The notes under the pieces were generated by a model. The model made no database searches. It was given only the letters and a program-made list of their open reading frames with translations, and had not been told where the DNA came from. From Xanthomonas sp. GPE 39 (GTDB taxonomy: Bacteria; Pseudomonadota; Gammaproteobacteria; Xanthomonadales; Xanthomonadaceae), in contig NZ_JZHZ01000007.1 of NCBI RefSeq assembly GCF_000963005.1, forward strand, positions 2,083,256 to 2,147,255: a DNA stretch of 64,000 nt, in the 5' to 3' direction. The translations under genes were made by a program, and so were the position numbers. Positions 51,060-57,211 of this stretch are shown here, in pieces (position 1 is the first letter of the stretch; each line of letters opens with the position of its first letter).

Positions 51060-52133
51060 ATGAAGCATCGCCCCCTGCTCGCACTGCTACTACCACTGGC
51101 GACGGCCCTGGCGTCCACCGCCCACGCTGCGCCGTCCCAAGCCAAGACCGCTACTGCTGCGAGTACTGCGAGTACTAGTACTGCTACTACCGATTGCAGC
51201 GTGCGCGCGGAACCCGGCAACGACCTGCAGGCCATGATCGACAGCCTCCCTAACGATGGCAAACCGGCGACGCTCTGCCTGAGCGCCGGCGACTTTCACT
51301 TGAACAAATTGCTGTCGATCCAGCGCAACGGCCTGCGCCTGCGTGGTCAGGGCGATAAGACCGTGCTACGCATGCGCGATGGCGTGCAACAACCAACCAT
51401 CGTGCTCGGCGACTATCAGCACGAACGCCCGCTACGGCCGATCAGCGACGTGCAGATCAGCCAATTGCAGATCGTCGGCGGCGATGCCCAGAAGGAATTC
51501 ATGCCCGAACTGCCGTACCTGAGCAACAGCTTGGTGGTGGTGCGCAGCGGACAGAACATCCAACTCACCCATCTGCGGGTAAACAAATGCCGCAGCGCCT
51601 GCCTGCTCAGCGAATACGACAGCCACGACCTGCTGATCGCCCACAACGACATCTCCGGCGCGACCTGGGACGGGGTATCGTTCAACCGCAGCGCCAAGAT
51701 CAAACTGTTCGACAACACGATTCATGACAATGTCGCCGCCGGCATCACCACCGAGCACCTGGAAGACAGCGAGATCCAAAATAACCGCCTGGAGCGCAAT
51801 GGCAGCCAAGGCCTATACCTGTCCGATTCACGCGGCAACCTGTTTACCGGCAACCAGTTCATCGATAACAAGGGCGCGGGCCTATACCTGACCTGTTCGA
51901 TCCGCCAGCGCACGCCGGAGATCCTGTGCTGGGACAACAGCATGAGCCAGAACAACACCTTCGAGCACAACATCTTCCGCGGCAATCCGTTCACCTACAT
52001 GGTCGGCGTGAACAGCGCGGCCAACTGCAAAGGCAGCGATTTCCAACCGAATCTGTGGCGCGATAACGAGGGCACAGCCTCCGGCGTGGACATCCTGCCT
52101 GATCGCTACGGGTACTGCGTGCGGTTCAAATAA
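51060..52133 (+). CDS. Secreted right-handed parallel beta-helix protein
   Basis: 357 residues. Signal peptide about 1-23 (ends AHA), then a Ser/Thr/Ala low-complexity linker (about 25-44) encoded by near-repeated AGTACT triplets. A parallel beta-helix follows (about 70-300), recognised by repeated turns such as SHDLLIAHNDISG, KIKLFDNTIHDN, DSEIQNNRLERN and RGNLFTGNQFIDN. The regular N-ladder is as in NosD/pectate-lyase-like folds. Several Cys could form disulfides. No catalytic residues of a known polysaccharide lyase are evident, so substrate and activity are open. Confidence 0.75.
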   Translation: MKHRPLLALLLPLATALASTAHAAPSQAKTATAASTASTSTATTDCSVRAEPGNDLQAMIDSLPNDGKPATLCLSAGDFHLNKLLSIQRNGLRLRGQGDKTVLRMRDGVQQPTIVLGDYQHERPLRPISDVQISQLQIVGGDAQKEFMPELPYLSNSLVVVRSGQNIQLTHLRVNKCRSACLLSEYDSHDLLIAHNDISGATWDGVSFNRSAKIKLFDNTIHDNVAAGITTEHLEDSEIQNNRLERNGSQGLYLSDSRGNLFTGNQFIDNKGAGLYLTCSIRQRTPEILCWDNSMSQNNTFEHNIFRGNPFTYMVGVNSAANCKGSDFQPNLWRDNEGTASGVDILPDRYGYCVRFK

Positions 52134-52459
52134 CCGCATGCGGGAAGCAAGACCGAATCACTGGCATGGTTTGGTCTTGACTGAAGAACCAGCCCACTGA
52201 GAGCACGGCCAAACACCTCGGCTTCTCCAAGTCGCCGTGACTCAGTGGCAAGGCTGTAGAAAACATCAGCTCACAGGCAATGCCTGAGCTTAGATGGCCG
52301 CGCATTTGCGCCACGCGCGCTGCGACATCAGCAGCAACATTCTCCGCATTCGCACTTCCGGCTTGATACGCCACCAATCCGAACCCGATCGGCATTGTCT
52401 GCACAATCGCCGGTTCGAATGGCTGGCGGGGAATGCGACCGCACGCCCCGCCGCATCGA
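52134..52459. other. Gene-free gap
   Basis: 326 bases between the convergent beta-helix and asnB genes. Open frames exist but lack ribosome sites and family resemblance. No strong T-tailed hairpin is seen. Confidence 0.5.
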
Positions 52460-54151
52460 TCAGGCCAGCGCCTGTTCGTGCACGCCTGCGACCGCACGCC
52501 CGGAGGGATCGGCCATCGCCGCGAAGCTCGCGTCCCAGGCGATCGCCGCCGGCGACGAGCACGCAATCGACTTGCCGCCCGGCACGGTCTCGGCTGCCGC
52601 CGGCGTGGGGAACGCGCGTTCGAACAGGCTGCGGTAGTAATAAGCTTCCTTGGTCTGCGGTGGATTCACCGGGAAGCGCTTGTCGGCTGCGGCGAGTTCG
52701 CGGTCGCTGACCTGGGTCTGCGCATGCGCCTTCAACCCATCGATCCAGCCATAGCCGACGCCATCGCTGAATTGCTCCTTCTGCCGCCACAGGATCGACT
52801 CCGGCAGATAGCCCTCGAACGCCTCGCGCAATACCGCCTTCTCGATGCGCTTGCGGCCATCGGCGTGGACGCCGGCCATTTTGTACTGGGCGTCCATGCG
52901 CATCGCCACATCCAGGAACTCCACGTCCAGAAACGGCACGCGCGGCTCCACGCCCCAGGCCATCATCGACTTGTTGGCGCGCAGGCAATCGTAGTTGTAC
53001 AGCGCATCGAGTTTGCGGATCAGCTCTTCATGGAACTCGCGCGCATTCGGCGCCTTGTGGAAATACAGATAGCCGCCGAAGATCTCGTCGCTGCCCTCGC
53101 CGGACAGCACCATCTTCACCCCCATCGCCTTGATCCGCCGCGCCAGCAGGAACATCGGAGTGGAAGCGCGGATGGTGGTGACGTCATAGGTCTCGATATG
53201 GCGGATGACCTCCGGCAGCGCGTCCAGGCCTTCTTCGAAGGTGTATTCAAAACCGTGATGCACGGTGCCCAGCGCCTCGGCGGCAATCGCGGCGGCGGCC
53301 AAATCGGGCGATCCCCTCAGGCCAATGGCGAAGGAATGCAGGCGCGGCCACCAGGCCTCGGCCTGGTCGTTCTCCTCGATGCGCTTGCGCGCAAAACGCG
53401 CGGCCACCGCCGCCACCAGCGAAGAATCCAGGCCACCGGACAGCAACACGCCATAGGGCACGTCGGTCATCAACTGGCGATGCACCGCGCGCTCGAACGC
53501 CTCGCGCAATTCCTGCTTGCTCACCTCCACGCCCTGCACGGCGGCGTAATCGCGCCACGGCCTGCGGTAGTACTGCACCAACGCGCCGCTGGCGCTGTCG
53601 TAGTAGTGGCCCGGCGGGAATTGGGCGACATCGGCGCAAGTGTCGGCCAGCGATTTCATTTCCGAGGCCACGCGCAGGCGTCCCTGTGCGTCATGGCCCC
53701 AATACAACGGGCACACGCCCATCGGATCGCGCGCAATCAGCACGCGGCCTGCGGCCTTGTCCCACAGCGCGAAGGCGAAGATGCCGTTGAGCCGGTCGAG
53801 CAGCGCGGCTGGCGCGTCCTCACGGTACAGAGCGTTGATCACTTCGCAATCCGAACCGGTCTGGAACGCATAGGGCTGGGTCAGTTGCTGTTTCAGTTCG
53901 CGGTGGTTGTAGATCTCCCCATTGACCGCCAGGGCCAACTGGCCGTCCTCGGCCAGCAAGGGTTGCGCGCCACCGGCCGGATCCACGATGGCCAGGCGCT
54001 CGTGCACCAGAACCGCACCGTCATCGACATACACGCCGCTCCAGTCCGGGCCACGATGGCGCTGGCGCTGCGAGCAATCCAACGCCTGCCGACGTAATGC
54101 CTGCAGGTCGTCGCCCGGTTGCAGGCCGAAGATGCCGAAAATCGAACACAT
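52460..54151 (-). CDS. asnB: Asparagine synthase, glutamine-hydrolysing
   Basis: 563 residues. The N-terminal Ntn glutaminase has catalytic Cys2 (MCSIFG), HRGPD, the NGEIYN loop and GSDCEV. The synthetase domain has a pyrophosphate loop LLSGGLDSSLVAA and the family signature LSGEGSDEIFGGYLYFHKAP. It makes asparagine from aspartate, glutamine and ATP. The last 30 or so residues (SPAAIAWDASFAAMADPSG) are close to the E. coli pattern. Upstream on the same strand are a terminator (54265-54237) and a short Asn-containing leader peptide gene (54395-54300), so expression is probably set by attenuation. Confidence 0.95.
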   Translation of the reverse strand: MCSIFGIFGLQPGDDLQALRRQALDCSQRQRHRGPDWSGVYVDDGAVLVHERLAIVDPAGGAQPLLAEDGQLALAVNGEIYNHRELKQQLTQPYAFQTGSDCEVINALYREDAPAALLDRLNGIFAFALWDKAAGRVLIARDPMGVCPLYWGHDAQGRLRVASEMKSLADTCADVAQFPPGHYYDSASGALVQYYRRPWRDYAAVQGVEVSKQELREAFERAVHRQLMTDVPYGVLLSGGLDSSLVAAVAARFARKRIEENDQAEAWWPRLHSFAIGLRGSPDLAAAAIAAEALGTVHHGFEYTFEEGLDALPEVIRHIETYDVTTIRASTPMFLLARRIKAMGVKMVLSGEGSDEIFGGYLYFHKAPNAREFHEELIRKLDALYNYDCLRANKSMMAWGVEPRVPFLDVEFLDVAMRMDAQYKMAGVHADGRKRIEKAVLREAFEGYLPESILWRQKEQFSDGVGYGWIDGLKAHAQTQVSDRELAAADKRFPVNPPQTKEAYYYRSLFERAFPTPAAAETVPGGKSIACSSPAAIAWDASFAAMADPSGRAVAGVHEQALA

Positions 54152-54236
54152 GCGAAACTCCTGATCGTGGGGCCGAGTGGGGATTGTCCCCGGTCATGAC
54201 GCACCGGGTGATTGCAAAAGGTGCCCACGCACGCAC

Positions 54237-54265
54237 AAAAAAACCCGCATCGGCCGATGCGGGTT
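54237..54265 (-). terminator. Terminator in the asnB leader (attenuator candidate)
   Basis: A perfect 24-base palindrome (54242-54265) followed on the minus strand by seven T residues. It ends 86 bases before the asnB start and 35 bases after the leader peptide stop. It is too far from dapE to be a simple end for it. Its left arm (54264-54256) is complementary to 54318-54310 inside the leader peptide gene, so an alternative antiterminator helix can form. Confidence 0.85.
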
Positions 54266-54299
54266 GTCTGAGAGCTGGGCGTGGTGTTGCTGGTAACGC

Positions 54300-54395
54300 C
54301 TAGTCGCAGACCCGCATCAGCCACGCAGGATGATTCGCCAGCGCATGGTTACGAGCGTTGGCGCGAATCGGGCGGGAGGCAGACAGCGCGTTCAT
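54300..54395 (-). CDS. Predicted asnB leader peptide, 31 residues
   Basis: ATG at 54395, TAG at 54302-54300. The peptide has Asn at positions 2, 13, 16 and 21, three of them in the run ANARNHALAN, and then ends HPAWLMRVCD. Codons 26-29 contain GATGCGGGT, which can pair with the terminator's left arm. A ribosome paused at Asn codon 21 would leave that stretch free, while one that finishes would cover it. A promoter with TTGCGT (54430-54425), a 17-base spacer and TACGTT (54407-54402) would start the transcript at the ATG itself, which would explain the absence of a ribosome site. Function is inference. Confidence 0.6.
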   Translation of the reverse strand: MNALSASRPIRANARNHALANHPAWLMRVCD

Positions 54396-54433
54396 TGATC
54401 GAACGTAACCCGGTGCGCGAGCAGACGCAACTG

Positions 54434-55564
54434 TTACGAGAGCAACCGTTCGATCAGACGCAGGTAGAGCCCAGGCAATGCGTGCAGGTCGGCCACACGC
54501 ACATGTTCGTCCACCTGATGGATGCTGGCGTTGACCGGGCCGACCTCGATGCACTGGGCACCCAATGGCGCGATGAAACGCGCATCGGACGTGCCGCCGC
54601 CGGTGCTTTCCTCCGGTGGCGCACCGGCGAAGGCACCCAGCACCTCGCGCGCTATCCCGCGCAGAGTGCCTTCAGGGGTATAGAACGGTTCACCGCTGCG
54701 ATGCCACTGCACGCTGTAGTCCAAACCATGGCGGTCGAGCAGCGCCGCGATCTCCGCTTCCAGCCGTGGCGCATCCCAGTGCGGGGTGTAGCGCAGATTG
54801 AAGGCGACCTCCAATTGGCCGGGAATCACATTGTTCGCGCCGGTCCCGGCGTGCACGTTGGAAATCTGCAGACTCGTCGGCGGGAAGCTTTCGTAACCGT
54901 CGTCCCAATGCCGCGCGACTAGTTCGGTCAGCGCTGGCGCAGCGAGATGGATCGGATTGCGCGCCTTGTGTGGGTAGGCCACATGCCCCTGTACCCCGCG
55001 CACCGTCAACGCGCCAGACAAGCTGCCGCGACGCCCGACGCGCAATAGATCGCCAAGCCGTTCGGTGGACGAAGGTTCGCCGGTGATGCACCAGTCGATG
55101 CGTTCGCCACGTTCGGCGAACAGGCGCGCCACATGACGCACACCGTCGAGCGCAGGACCTTCCTCGTCGCTGGTCAGCAGCACCGCCAACGTGCCAGGGT
55201 GCTGTGGATGCGCCGCGACATACTGCTCGCACGCGATCACGAATGCGGCCACGCTGCCCTTCATGTCGGCGGCGCCGCGACCGTACAGCACACCGTCGCG
55301 TATCTGCGGCGCAAATGGATCACTGGCCCAGGCCTCACGCGGCCCAGGCGGCACCACGTCGGTATGACCGAGCAGCACGAGGACAGGGCCGTCACCACCG
55401 CCATGCGTCGCCCACAGGTTATCGACCTGGCCACAACGCAGATGCTCGATGACGAAGCCGGCGTGCGCCAAGCGTTGTGCGATCAATTCCTGGCAGCCGG
55501 CATCCTCCGGCGTCACCGAGGGACGGGCGATCAGGTCGCAGGCAAGTTCAATCACATCGGACAT
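54434..55564 (-). CDS. dapE: Succinyl-diaminopimelate desuccinylase
   Basis: 376 residues, M20 peptidase family. Zinc ligands and catalytic residues: His in [11 protein letters not shown], Asp in [11 protein letters not shown], the catalytic Glu pair in [11 protein letters not shown], and a late His in [11 protein letters not shown] dimerisation lid spans about 180-290. It releases succinate in the lysine/diaminopimelate pathway. It lies downstream of dapD on the same strand with the ArsC-like gene between. The promoter of the asnB leader begins right at its stop. Confidence 0.95.
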
Positions 55565-55738
55565 GGTCGGTCATCACGATCAGAGCAGCATTGCGTGGCT
55601 TTATGCTAGCAGCCGCAAATAGAGGGAAACATGCAGCATCGCGCCTGCGCTCAGCGCTATGCACACACGGGAACAGGCAGGCGGTGCAGCGAGCCCAAGA
55701 CTCAACTCAGACGCTGCAAGCGCACGCGCATCATGGCG

Positions 55739-56095
55739 TCAACCGACGCCAAAACGCTGCTTGAACGCATTATCGGAAAAGCCCTGACTGATCCGGCCAT
55801 CCGCGGTGAGCACCAGCGGCCGTCGGATCAGTTGCGGATATTCGCGCAACAGCAGCTTCCACTCGGCATCGGAACCCGGGGTTTTCTTGTTTTCCGGAAG
55901 TTGCCGCCAGGTGGTCGAGGATTTGTTGACCAGCGCGTCGAAGCCGCCGACCTTAGCCGCCCACTCCAGCAAAGTTTCGGGCGTGGGCGTGTTGGCACGA
56001 TAGTCGACGAACGTATGGGCGATGTCGAAACGCTCCAGCCACTTGATAGCTTTCTTGCAGGTGTCGCAGTTTTTCAATCCGTAGATCGTGATCAT
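55739..56095 (-). CDS. ArsC/Spx-family thioredoxin-fold protein (YffB-like)
   Basis: 118 residues from the ATG at 56095 (MITIYGLKNCDTCKKA). A TTG two codons upstream is less likely. Thioredoxin fold with CDTC in the active-site turn. E. coli YffB has only the first Cys, so a redox-active pair is possible here. FVDYRANTPT, SSTTWRQLPENKK and IRRPLVLTADG are family motifs. The same gene neighbours dapE in E. coli, and here it sits between dapD and dapE, but its role is unknown. It is unlikely to be an arsenate reductase. Confidence 0.88.
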   Translation of the reverse strand: MITIYGLKNCDTCKKAIKWLERFDIAHTFVDYRANTPTPETLLEWAAKVGGFDALVNKSSTTWRQLPENKKTPGSDAEWKLLLREYPQLIRRPLVLTADGRISQGFSDNAFKQRFGVG

Positions 56096-56230
56096 TTCCA
56101 AATCTCACTCTTGCGCGCCGCGCTTGTTCCAACACATCAAGGGATTAGAGTCAGGACAAACGCGCCGCGATGGGGTCGCATACTGCGCCACACGCATTCA
56201 CTGCGACGCGCCATCGGCGAACACAACGTG

Positions 56231-57211
56231 TCAGTCGGCCAGGCCGCGCAGCAGTTCGTTGACGCTGGTCTTGCTCCGGGTCTTGGCATCGACCTGCTTG
56301 ACGATCACCGCACAGTACAGCGAGTGCGAACCGTCCTTGGCCGGCAACTGGCCAGACACCACCACGCTGTAAGGCGGGACGTAGCCATAGGAAATCTCGC
56401 CGGTGGCGCGGTTGTAGATCCGCGTACTCTGACCAATGAACACGCCCATGCCGATCACGCTGTGGTGGCCGACCACCACGCCCTCCACCACTTCCGAGCG
56501 CGCACCGATGAAGCAGTGATCCTCGATGATGGTCGGACTGGCCTGCAACGGCTCCAGCACACCGCCAATGCCGGCACCGCCGGACAAATGGCAGTGTTTG
56601 CCGATCTGCGCGCAGGAACCGACCGTCGCCCAGGTATCGACCATGGTGCCCTCGCCCACGTGCGCGCCGATGTTGGTGAAACTCGGCATCAGCACCACGT
56701 CCTTGCCGAAGTAACTGCCGCGTCGCGCAACCGCACCCGGCACCACACGCACCCCGGCCTTGCGGAATTCGGCTTCGTGGTAACCGGCGAAACGCGATTC
56801 CACCTTGTCCCAGAACGGTGCCGGCTGCGCCTCGATGACCGCCATCTCATTGACCCGGAAATACAGCAGCACGGCTTTCTTCAGCCACTCGTTGAGTTTC
56901 CAGCCGCCGTGTCCATCCGGTTCGGAAACACGGAATTCGCCTGTTTCCAGGCCATCAATGACACGATTGACCACAGGCCGGGTCGAACCCTCGATCTCGT
57001 CCAGAGTCAACATGGCGCGGCGCTCGAAGGCGCTGTCGATCATGAACTTCAGTTCGTCGACACTGGGCGTGGCAGCGGGCTTGACCTGCGCAATGCTGGA
57101 TGCGGACTTCGGCACCGACCTGGGCGCAGTACGCTTGGCGGCAGTGGCACGCTTGGCCGGCTTAGCTGTGGCAACGGACTTCTTCTTCGCGGCAGGCTTC
57201 TTGGTAGCCAT
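56231..57211 (-). CDS. dapD: Tetrahydrodipicolinate N-succinyltransferase with Lys/Ala-rich N-terminal extension
   Basis: 326 residues, against about 274 for E. coli. Residues 1-45 are a basic, H1-like tail ([18 protein letters not shown]). The conserved domain follows: helical N-terminal part ([20 protein letters not shown]), then a left-handed beta-helix of hexapeptide repeats ([24 protein letters not shown]) and the C-terminal end [25 protein letters not shown]. It succinylates tetrahydrodipicolinate before DapC and DapE. Its ATG shares one base with the glnD stop (TGATG), which fixes the start and confirms that the tail is translated. Confidence 0.93.

Follow-up and report, generated by a model that had tools for sequence, protein, structure and literature searches.

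A candidate asparagine-responsive leader-peptide attenuator before asnB in Xanthomonas and its order

The trp attenuator of Escherichia coli (trpL) places a leader peptide with end-product codons, an alternative RNA pairing and an intrinsic terminator before a biosynthetic gene. Asparagine genes are under T-box control in Firmicutes, where tRNA binds to the RNA, and under AsnC/Lrp control in enterics, which acts through a DNA-binding protein; neither is known to involve a leader peptide. The trpL leader of Sinorhizobium meliloti is leaderless, so a leaderless start of a leader peptide is not in itself new, and the rnTrpL RNA and peTrpL peptide are described as also acting in trans (PMC7298713).

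In the window, the 64,000-nucleotide stretch of Xanthomonas sp. GPE 39 DNA analysed here, asnB is preceded by a short open frame with Asn codons and by an intrinsic terminator. We consider it very likely that this region is a ribosome-mediated transcription attenuator sensing charged tRNA-Asn before asnB. Xanthomonas and its relatives probably switch asparagine synthesis on when charged asparagine tRNA is short for the ribosomes, as conservation of the region suggests. The open-licence literature that we searched yielded no description of an asparagine leader-peptide attenuator and none of asnB control in the order of Xanthomonas. If the proposal is true, asparagine joins the amino acids sensed through leader-peptide translation, in an order that includes plant pathogens and Stenotrophomonas, and at a locus where every part is defined to the base and the competing strands have natural variants.

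The asnB leader and its occurrence among relatives

All features lie on the minus strand (Table 1). A preliminary description of the locus, which listed a 31-codon frame with four Asn codons, a palindrome, seven T residues and then asnB, proved right to the base; the Asn codons are 2, 13, 16 and 21. The intrinsic terminator between leader ORF and asnB is present by sequence, as a perfect 24-base palindrome AACCCGCATCGGCCGATGCGGGTT (54265-54242) whose last two bases are the first two T of the T run. The alternative pairing proposed there stood in its core: leader GATGCGGGT (54318-54310) is exactly complementary to ACCCGCATC (54264-54256). The extension given for it was too short, the actual run being 12 pairs with one G-U, GCTGATGCGGGT (54321-54310) with ACCCGCATCGGC. 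Its promoter pair, with a 17-base spacer followed after the -10 by CGATCA and then the ATG at 54395, holds as a prediction of a leaderless leader, and the predicted start recurs in relatives. An inner stem between segment A and arm B, GGCGT/ACGCC, is predicted in the antiterminator and looks kept within the genus.

Table 1. Positions of the asnB leader features and flanking genes in the window
Feature	Position	Strand	Basis
-35-like hexamer TTGCGT	54425..54430	-	Read from sequence; TTGC recurs near the same place in relatives' loci
-10-like hexamer TACGTT	54402..54407	-	Begins 12 nt before leader ATG; sequence and recurrence in relatives
Predicted transcript start, leaderless	54395	-	Sequence prediction
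Leader peptide ORF, 31 codons, MNALSASRPIRANARNHALANHPAWLMRVCD, then stop	54300..54395	-	Sequence and comparison
Asn codon 13 (AAC)	54357..54359	-	AAC in 18/18 genus leaders
Asn codon 16 (AAC)	54348..54350	-	Asn in 18/18 genus leaders
Asn codon 21 (AAT), last sensing codon of the window leader	54333..54335	-	Asn in 17/18 genus leaders
Segment A, GCTGATGCGGGT, antiterminator strand within leader ORF	54310..54321	-	Pairs with terminator left arm
Inner helper stem inside antiterminator, 5' half GGCGT	54296..54300	-	Predicted by folding
Inner helper stem, 3' half ACGCC	54278..54282	-	Predicted by folding
Terminator left arm B, AACCCGCATCGG, common to antiterminator and terminator	54254..54265	-	Sequence
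Terminator right arm C, CCGATGCGGGTT	54242..54253	-	Sequence
Intrinsic terminator T run, 7 T	54237..54243	-	Sequence
asnB, asparagine synthase B	52460..54151	-	NF006949, 878.6 bits against a cut-off of 499
dapE	54434..55564	-	TIGR01246; upstream of the leader

In the proposed mechanism transcription would start at the A of the leader ATG, and a ribosome following RNA polymerase closely would translate the leader from a leaderless mRNA. When Asn-tRNA is ample the ribosome would pass the Asn codons and reach the stop codon, covering segment A; arm B would then be free to pair with arm C, and transcription would end at the T run before asnB. With scarce Asn-tRNA a ribosome held at an Asn codon would leave A free to pair with B before C is made; no terminator would form and asnB would be transcribed. 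The window genome is one of 77, out of 79 of the family, in which AsnRS (TIGR00457) exceeds its cut-off; tRNA-Asn can therefore be charged with free asparagine and, once charged, can report it.

A DNA search matched the region in all 20 genomes of the genus, counting the window's own. The AsnB protein search matched 90 of the 151 genomes of the order and, at E 1e-150, 268 of the 297 sampled genomes of the family; the other 29 had no match to the window AsnB at that threshold. Part of the AsnB matches were followed, and the upstream stretches examined comprise 75 loci of the window's family, 13 of family f12, three of f2, 21 of f7, seven of f9, one of f10, one of f5 and 80 named loci. One of the first 70 loci (L054) was left out because its orientation could not be set.

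An Asn-rich leader with a terminator (the module) occurs at 74 of the 75 loci of the window's family, and in two further families at 12 of 13 (f12) and 3 of 3 (f2). Four more distant families gave 1 of 21 (f7, locus L145), 0 of 7 (f9), 0 of 1 (f10) and 0 of 1 (f5); among these, the 18 f7 and two f9 loci added later were judged by eye and showed no module. All 41 named Lysobacterales loci carry it, counting L156, which has the same module in a MAG labelled only Pseudomonadota. The genera represented are Xanthomonas, Stenotrophomonas, Pseudoxanthomonas, Lysobacter, Luteimonas, Thermomonas, Arenimonas, Rhodanobacter, Dyella, Fulvimonas and Frateuria, with MAGs in addition. A loose criterion, which asked for a leader and a hairpin, let through 152 of the 181 loci screened; removing 20 other gammaproteobacterial loci and L146, and keeping L145, left a module set of 131 loci, 123 of them distinct (some named loci duplicate unnamed ones).

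Outside this set, no matching module was seen by eye at 35 other gammaproteobacterial asnB loci (Shewanella, Colwellia, Vibrio, Pseudoalteromonas and others, including two MAGs labelled only Gammaproteobacteria or Proteobacteria); 20 of the 35 meet the loose automatic criterion, but with leaders and hairpins unlike the module. Four loci labelled as other phyla or classes (L162, L168, L190 and L199) fail that criterion. The misses nearest the window's group, L142 and L143, have divergent AsnB (64% and 66% identity). Searches across the class recovered this type of AsnB rarely, in 4 of 274 genomes in one case and above the cut-off in 6 of 185 in another. When 18 near-genus leaders were made into a profile, it found matches at E 0.01 in 20 of the 79 family genomes and did not reach other genera. 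Three of its 21 matches (in G021 and G041, and the second in G048) are not beside a located asnB; in the window genome the asnB leader is the only match.

Some single loci deserve mention. L162, L168 and L190, labelled Holophagales, Rhodococcus and Deltaproteobacteria, encode AsnB 76-83% identical to the window's and lack leader and terminator; mislabelling of the records aside, this looks like a transfer of the coding part by itself. L145 combines a leader containing Asn, MFAIYNTINTTNNRLLRSAGSF, with a GC-rich terminator; it shows no clear promoter at the leaderless position and stands alone in its family, where 20 other loci are without the module. At L093 leader and terminator look intact though roughly 200-450 nt from asnB, with inverted repeats in between.

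Competing RNA pairings and the position of the ribosome

Segment A fits the terminator arm of its own locus better than arms of other loci. Among 41 representatives with less than 75% identity the A:B pairing score averages 22.4, against 18.9 (sd 0.56) with permuted arms, and none of 20,000 permutations reaches the own score; over all 123 loci the means are 24.8 and 20.5. The loci are related, so these permutation counts are not pure probabilities. Shuffling the leader end alone gives P < 0.05 at 84 of the 123 loci and not at the other 39. Shuffled A regions also pair often (0.44, against 0.74 for real ones) because the RNA is GC-rich.

Four Lysobacter-like loci of the 123 have arm GCCTGC and leader GCAGGC, Watson-Crick partners found in no other locus, and their terminator right arm keeps GCGGGC, pairing with GCCTGC by G-U. 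In the terminator the first two loop bases are left unpaired; at 37 of the 44 loci with the CCCGCATCG stem and a short loop the leader has partners for both of them, G-U counted as a pair. The exceptions are L060 with one mismatch, L079 with two, and five loci without the searched leader core. On an AsnB tree of 80 loci, 18 double changes fall on a single branch, and 9 of them keep the pairing. Permuting A among the leaves gives 6.9 on average and up to 14, so with so few independent changes the observed number is not significant and lends the pairing no support.

The preliminary description had staked its reading on conservation of the peptide and of the alternative pairing in relatives, and both are kept. 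It had further looked to the Asn codons, terminator and pairing changing together across relatives: all three are retained and A fits its own B, while the same-branch double changes are too few to lend support. As far as the sequence goes, then, conservation, Asn bias and the A:B fit support its view of the region as an attenuator.

A ribosome covers about 15 nt either side of the first base of its P-site codon. With this footprint assumed, a ribosome with codon 21 in the A site has its edge just before segment A, and one at the stop codon covers all of A except the first base. A 5-nt core of A is recognizable at 107 of the 123 loci (no convincing core at 16). Its place is nearly constant: by the medians, it lies 17 nt after the start of the last Asn codon ahead of it and 11 nt short of the stop codon's end. 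When the ribosome is masked at Asn, arm B is computed to pair with the leader before arm C is made at 122 of 123 loci, all Asn codons being taken. The corresponding 0 of 123 with the ribosome at the stop is a product of the mask itself, since the entire ORF is blocked in that state. As measured at first, this pairing fell under 0.3 at 15 loci, from Rhodanobacter and some others, where the last Asn is close to segment A. In the model, then, a stalled ribosome would free an antiterminator pairing that excludes the terminator, and a ribosome at the stop would cover it.

Equilibrium folding was tried as a test of the switch and dropped in favour of pairing before the right arm is made, the terminator being favoured in many loci and in the E. 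coli trp leader. Computed for the full RNA, with the ribosome at the Asn that favours the switch most, only 54 of the 123 loci have a terminator share under 50%; at the remaining 69 the modelled switch would need kinetics. The window, one of the 54, gives a terminator probability below 0.001 on average with the ribosome at Asn and 0.83 with it at the stop. The E. coli trp leader in its stalled state gives 0.97-0.99 terminator by the same calculation, so equilibrium folding is not a fair test.

Alternatively, the conserved leader end might be part of a small protein that is itself functional, and the terminator might do no more than set a fixed low read-through to asnB. The C-terminal ARPMRVCD, conserved among near genera, would suit such a protein, but other genera end in PRAGD, GWAGV or WRARA, and the RNA segment is kept in three reading frames (A cores at 100, 4 and 3 loci). 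Third positions at the leader end are also invariant within the genus. Among the 18 genus leaders compared codon by codon (from the 20 matched genomes, the window's included) the third-position difference rate is 0.106 in codons 1-10, 0.087 in codons 12-23 and 0.000 in codons 24-31, where first and second positions are low too (0.026 and 0.014). Two leaders gave no Pfam match, and the leader peptides tried gave no NCBIfam match. We regard a small protein of this kind as improbable.

Predicted promoter, asparagine codons and remaining alternatives

A promoter that would start the RNA at the leader ATG is predicted from the recurrence of its -10 element. Leaving out nine of the 123 loci without a usable ATG, a -10-like hexamer begins 12-13 nt before the nearest leader ATG at 89 of 114; the asnB ATG has one so placed at 2 of 114 loci, and random positions do in 249 of 3,420 cases. 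The -35 is the weaker element: adding a match of 4 of 6 to it leaves 27 of 114 at the leader, 0 of 114 at the asnB ATG and 23 of 3,420 at random. Picking the leader ATG by its best -10 gives 105 of the 123 loci with the hexamer starting 12 or 13 nt ahead of it. SD-like tetramers are present before the asnB ATG at 108 of 114 loci and before that of the leader at 21 of 114.

In the window leader taken by itself the Asn content stands out little. The two strands of the window contain, with nested starts counted separately, 413 stretches of 20-45 codons from ATG to stop; three of these have at least four Asn, the leader presumably among them, and the binomial P for at least four in 31 codons is 0.001 at 1.4% Asn, the rate of five window proteins. 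The window's own count is modest evidence; the strength of the case comes from conservation. Over codons -24 to -9 from the stop, Asn accounts for 36% in the 123 distinct leaders; its share in six window proteins is 1.5%, which makes a 25-fold enrichment. In their last 32 codons 105 have more than the window's four Asn, 14 (with the window) have four and four have three. Rhodanobacter has NNNNRANNNAN, Lysobacter NNNNRNNASLPRAGD and Stenotrophomonas maltophilia NNNNRNNLRANNRARPMRD. AAC (392) and AAT (367) are both used, which indicates that the Asn residue is kept and not one particular codon. At codons 17 and 22 the window leader has His; Asn occupies these places in 10 and 17 of the 18 genus leaders, and the window leader may therefore sense more weakly.

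These data bear on a second alternative, that the hairpin is the dapE terminator only and the ORF a chance reading. The window hairpin does follow dapE on the same strand, and dapE is detected upstream in 39 of the 123 loci. At the other 84, however, tblastn (E 1e-5) detected no dapE in the 600 nt upstream, and leader and terminator are still there, so the hairpin is not merely the terminator of dapE; the leader, moreover, has its own promoter-like pair and preserves Asn by either codon. We find this explanation very improbable. An equally poor prospect, in our judgement, is an attenuator that senses a general slowdown of translation, or another amino acid, in place of Asn: Arg, the next enriched residue of the sensing stretch, is frequent too, but at 1.9-fold, far from the 25-fold of Asn, and the downstream gene makes Asn, so that leader codons and gene product match. 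A T-box or metabolite riboswitch acting on the terminator, brought to mind by the T-boxes that regulate asn genes in Firmicutes, is scarcely credible, no Rfam family reaching its gathering score in window positions 52000-57000 or in loci L121, L161 and L164.

Comparison with known systems

Judged by features testable in sequence, the element appears to work like a classical attenuator and has the defining ones, with covariation on the tree staying within the range of its permutations. The kind of control is already known for other amino acids; asparagine specificity was not found described in the open papers searched. With the Firmicutes T-box and enteric AsnC/Lrp the proposed attenuator shares the pathway that is controlled.

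Among the uORF candidates of a 26-genome survey, such as uORFC-8-2 before cysS, codons for one amino acid likewise precede the matching gene; uORFC-8-2 is a Cys case from Rhodobacterales, and the words asparagine and asnB are absent from the survey's main text (PMC8632094). For the ilvBNC attenuator of Corynebacterium glutamicum, attenuator hairpins are likewise discussed along with leaderless initiation, in a system that serves branched-chain amino acids and belongs to another phylum (PMC11857589).

In the rnTrpL/peTrpL system the leaderless RNA is described as beginning with the leader ATG, a start that for asnB is a prediction only; the system differs in being Trp-specific and from another class (PMC7298713). 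By analogy with it, we entertain as a long shot that the asparagine attenuator class is old in the order and perhaps its main asparagine sensor, and that the terminated leaderless RNA of ~155-160 nt, or the Asn-rich peptide, may also act in trans on other mRNAs.

The asnB leader and trpL of E. coli have in common end-product codons, an alternative pairing and a terminator before a biosynthetic gene; in folding calculations the terminator is favoured at equilibrium in trpL as in many of the asnB loci. The codons are Asn in the one and Trp in the other. The asnB leader is predicted to be leaderless, few SD-like sequences preceding it, and its antiterminator strand is part of the leader ORF; that of trp, by the fold, lies past the stop.
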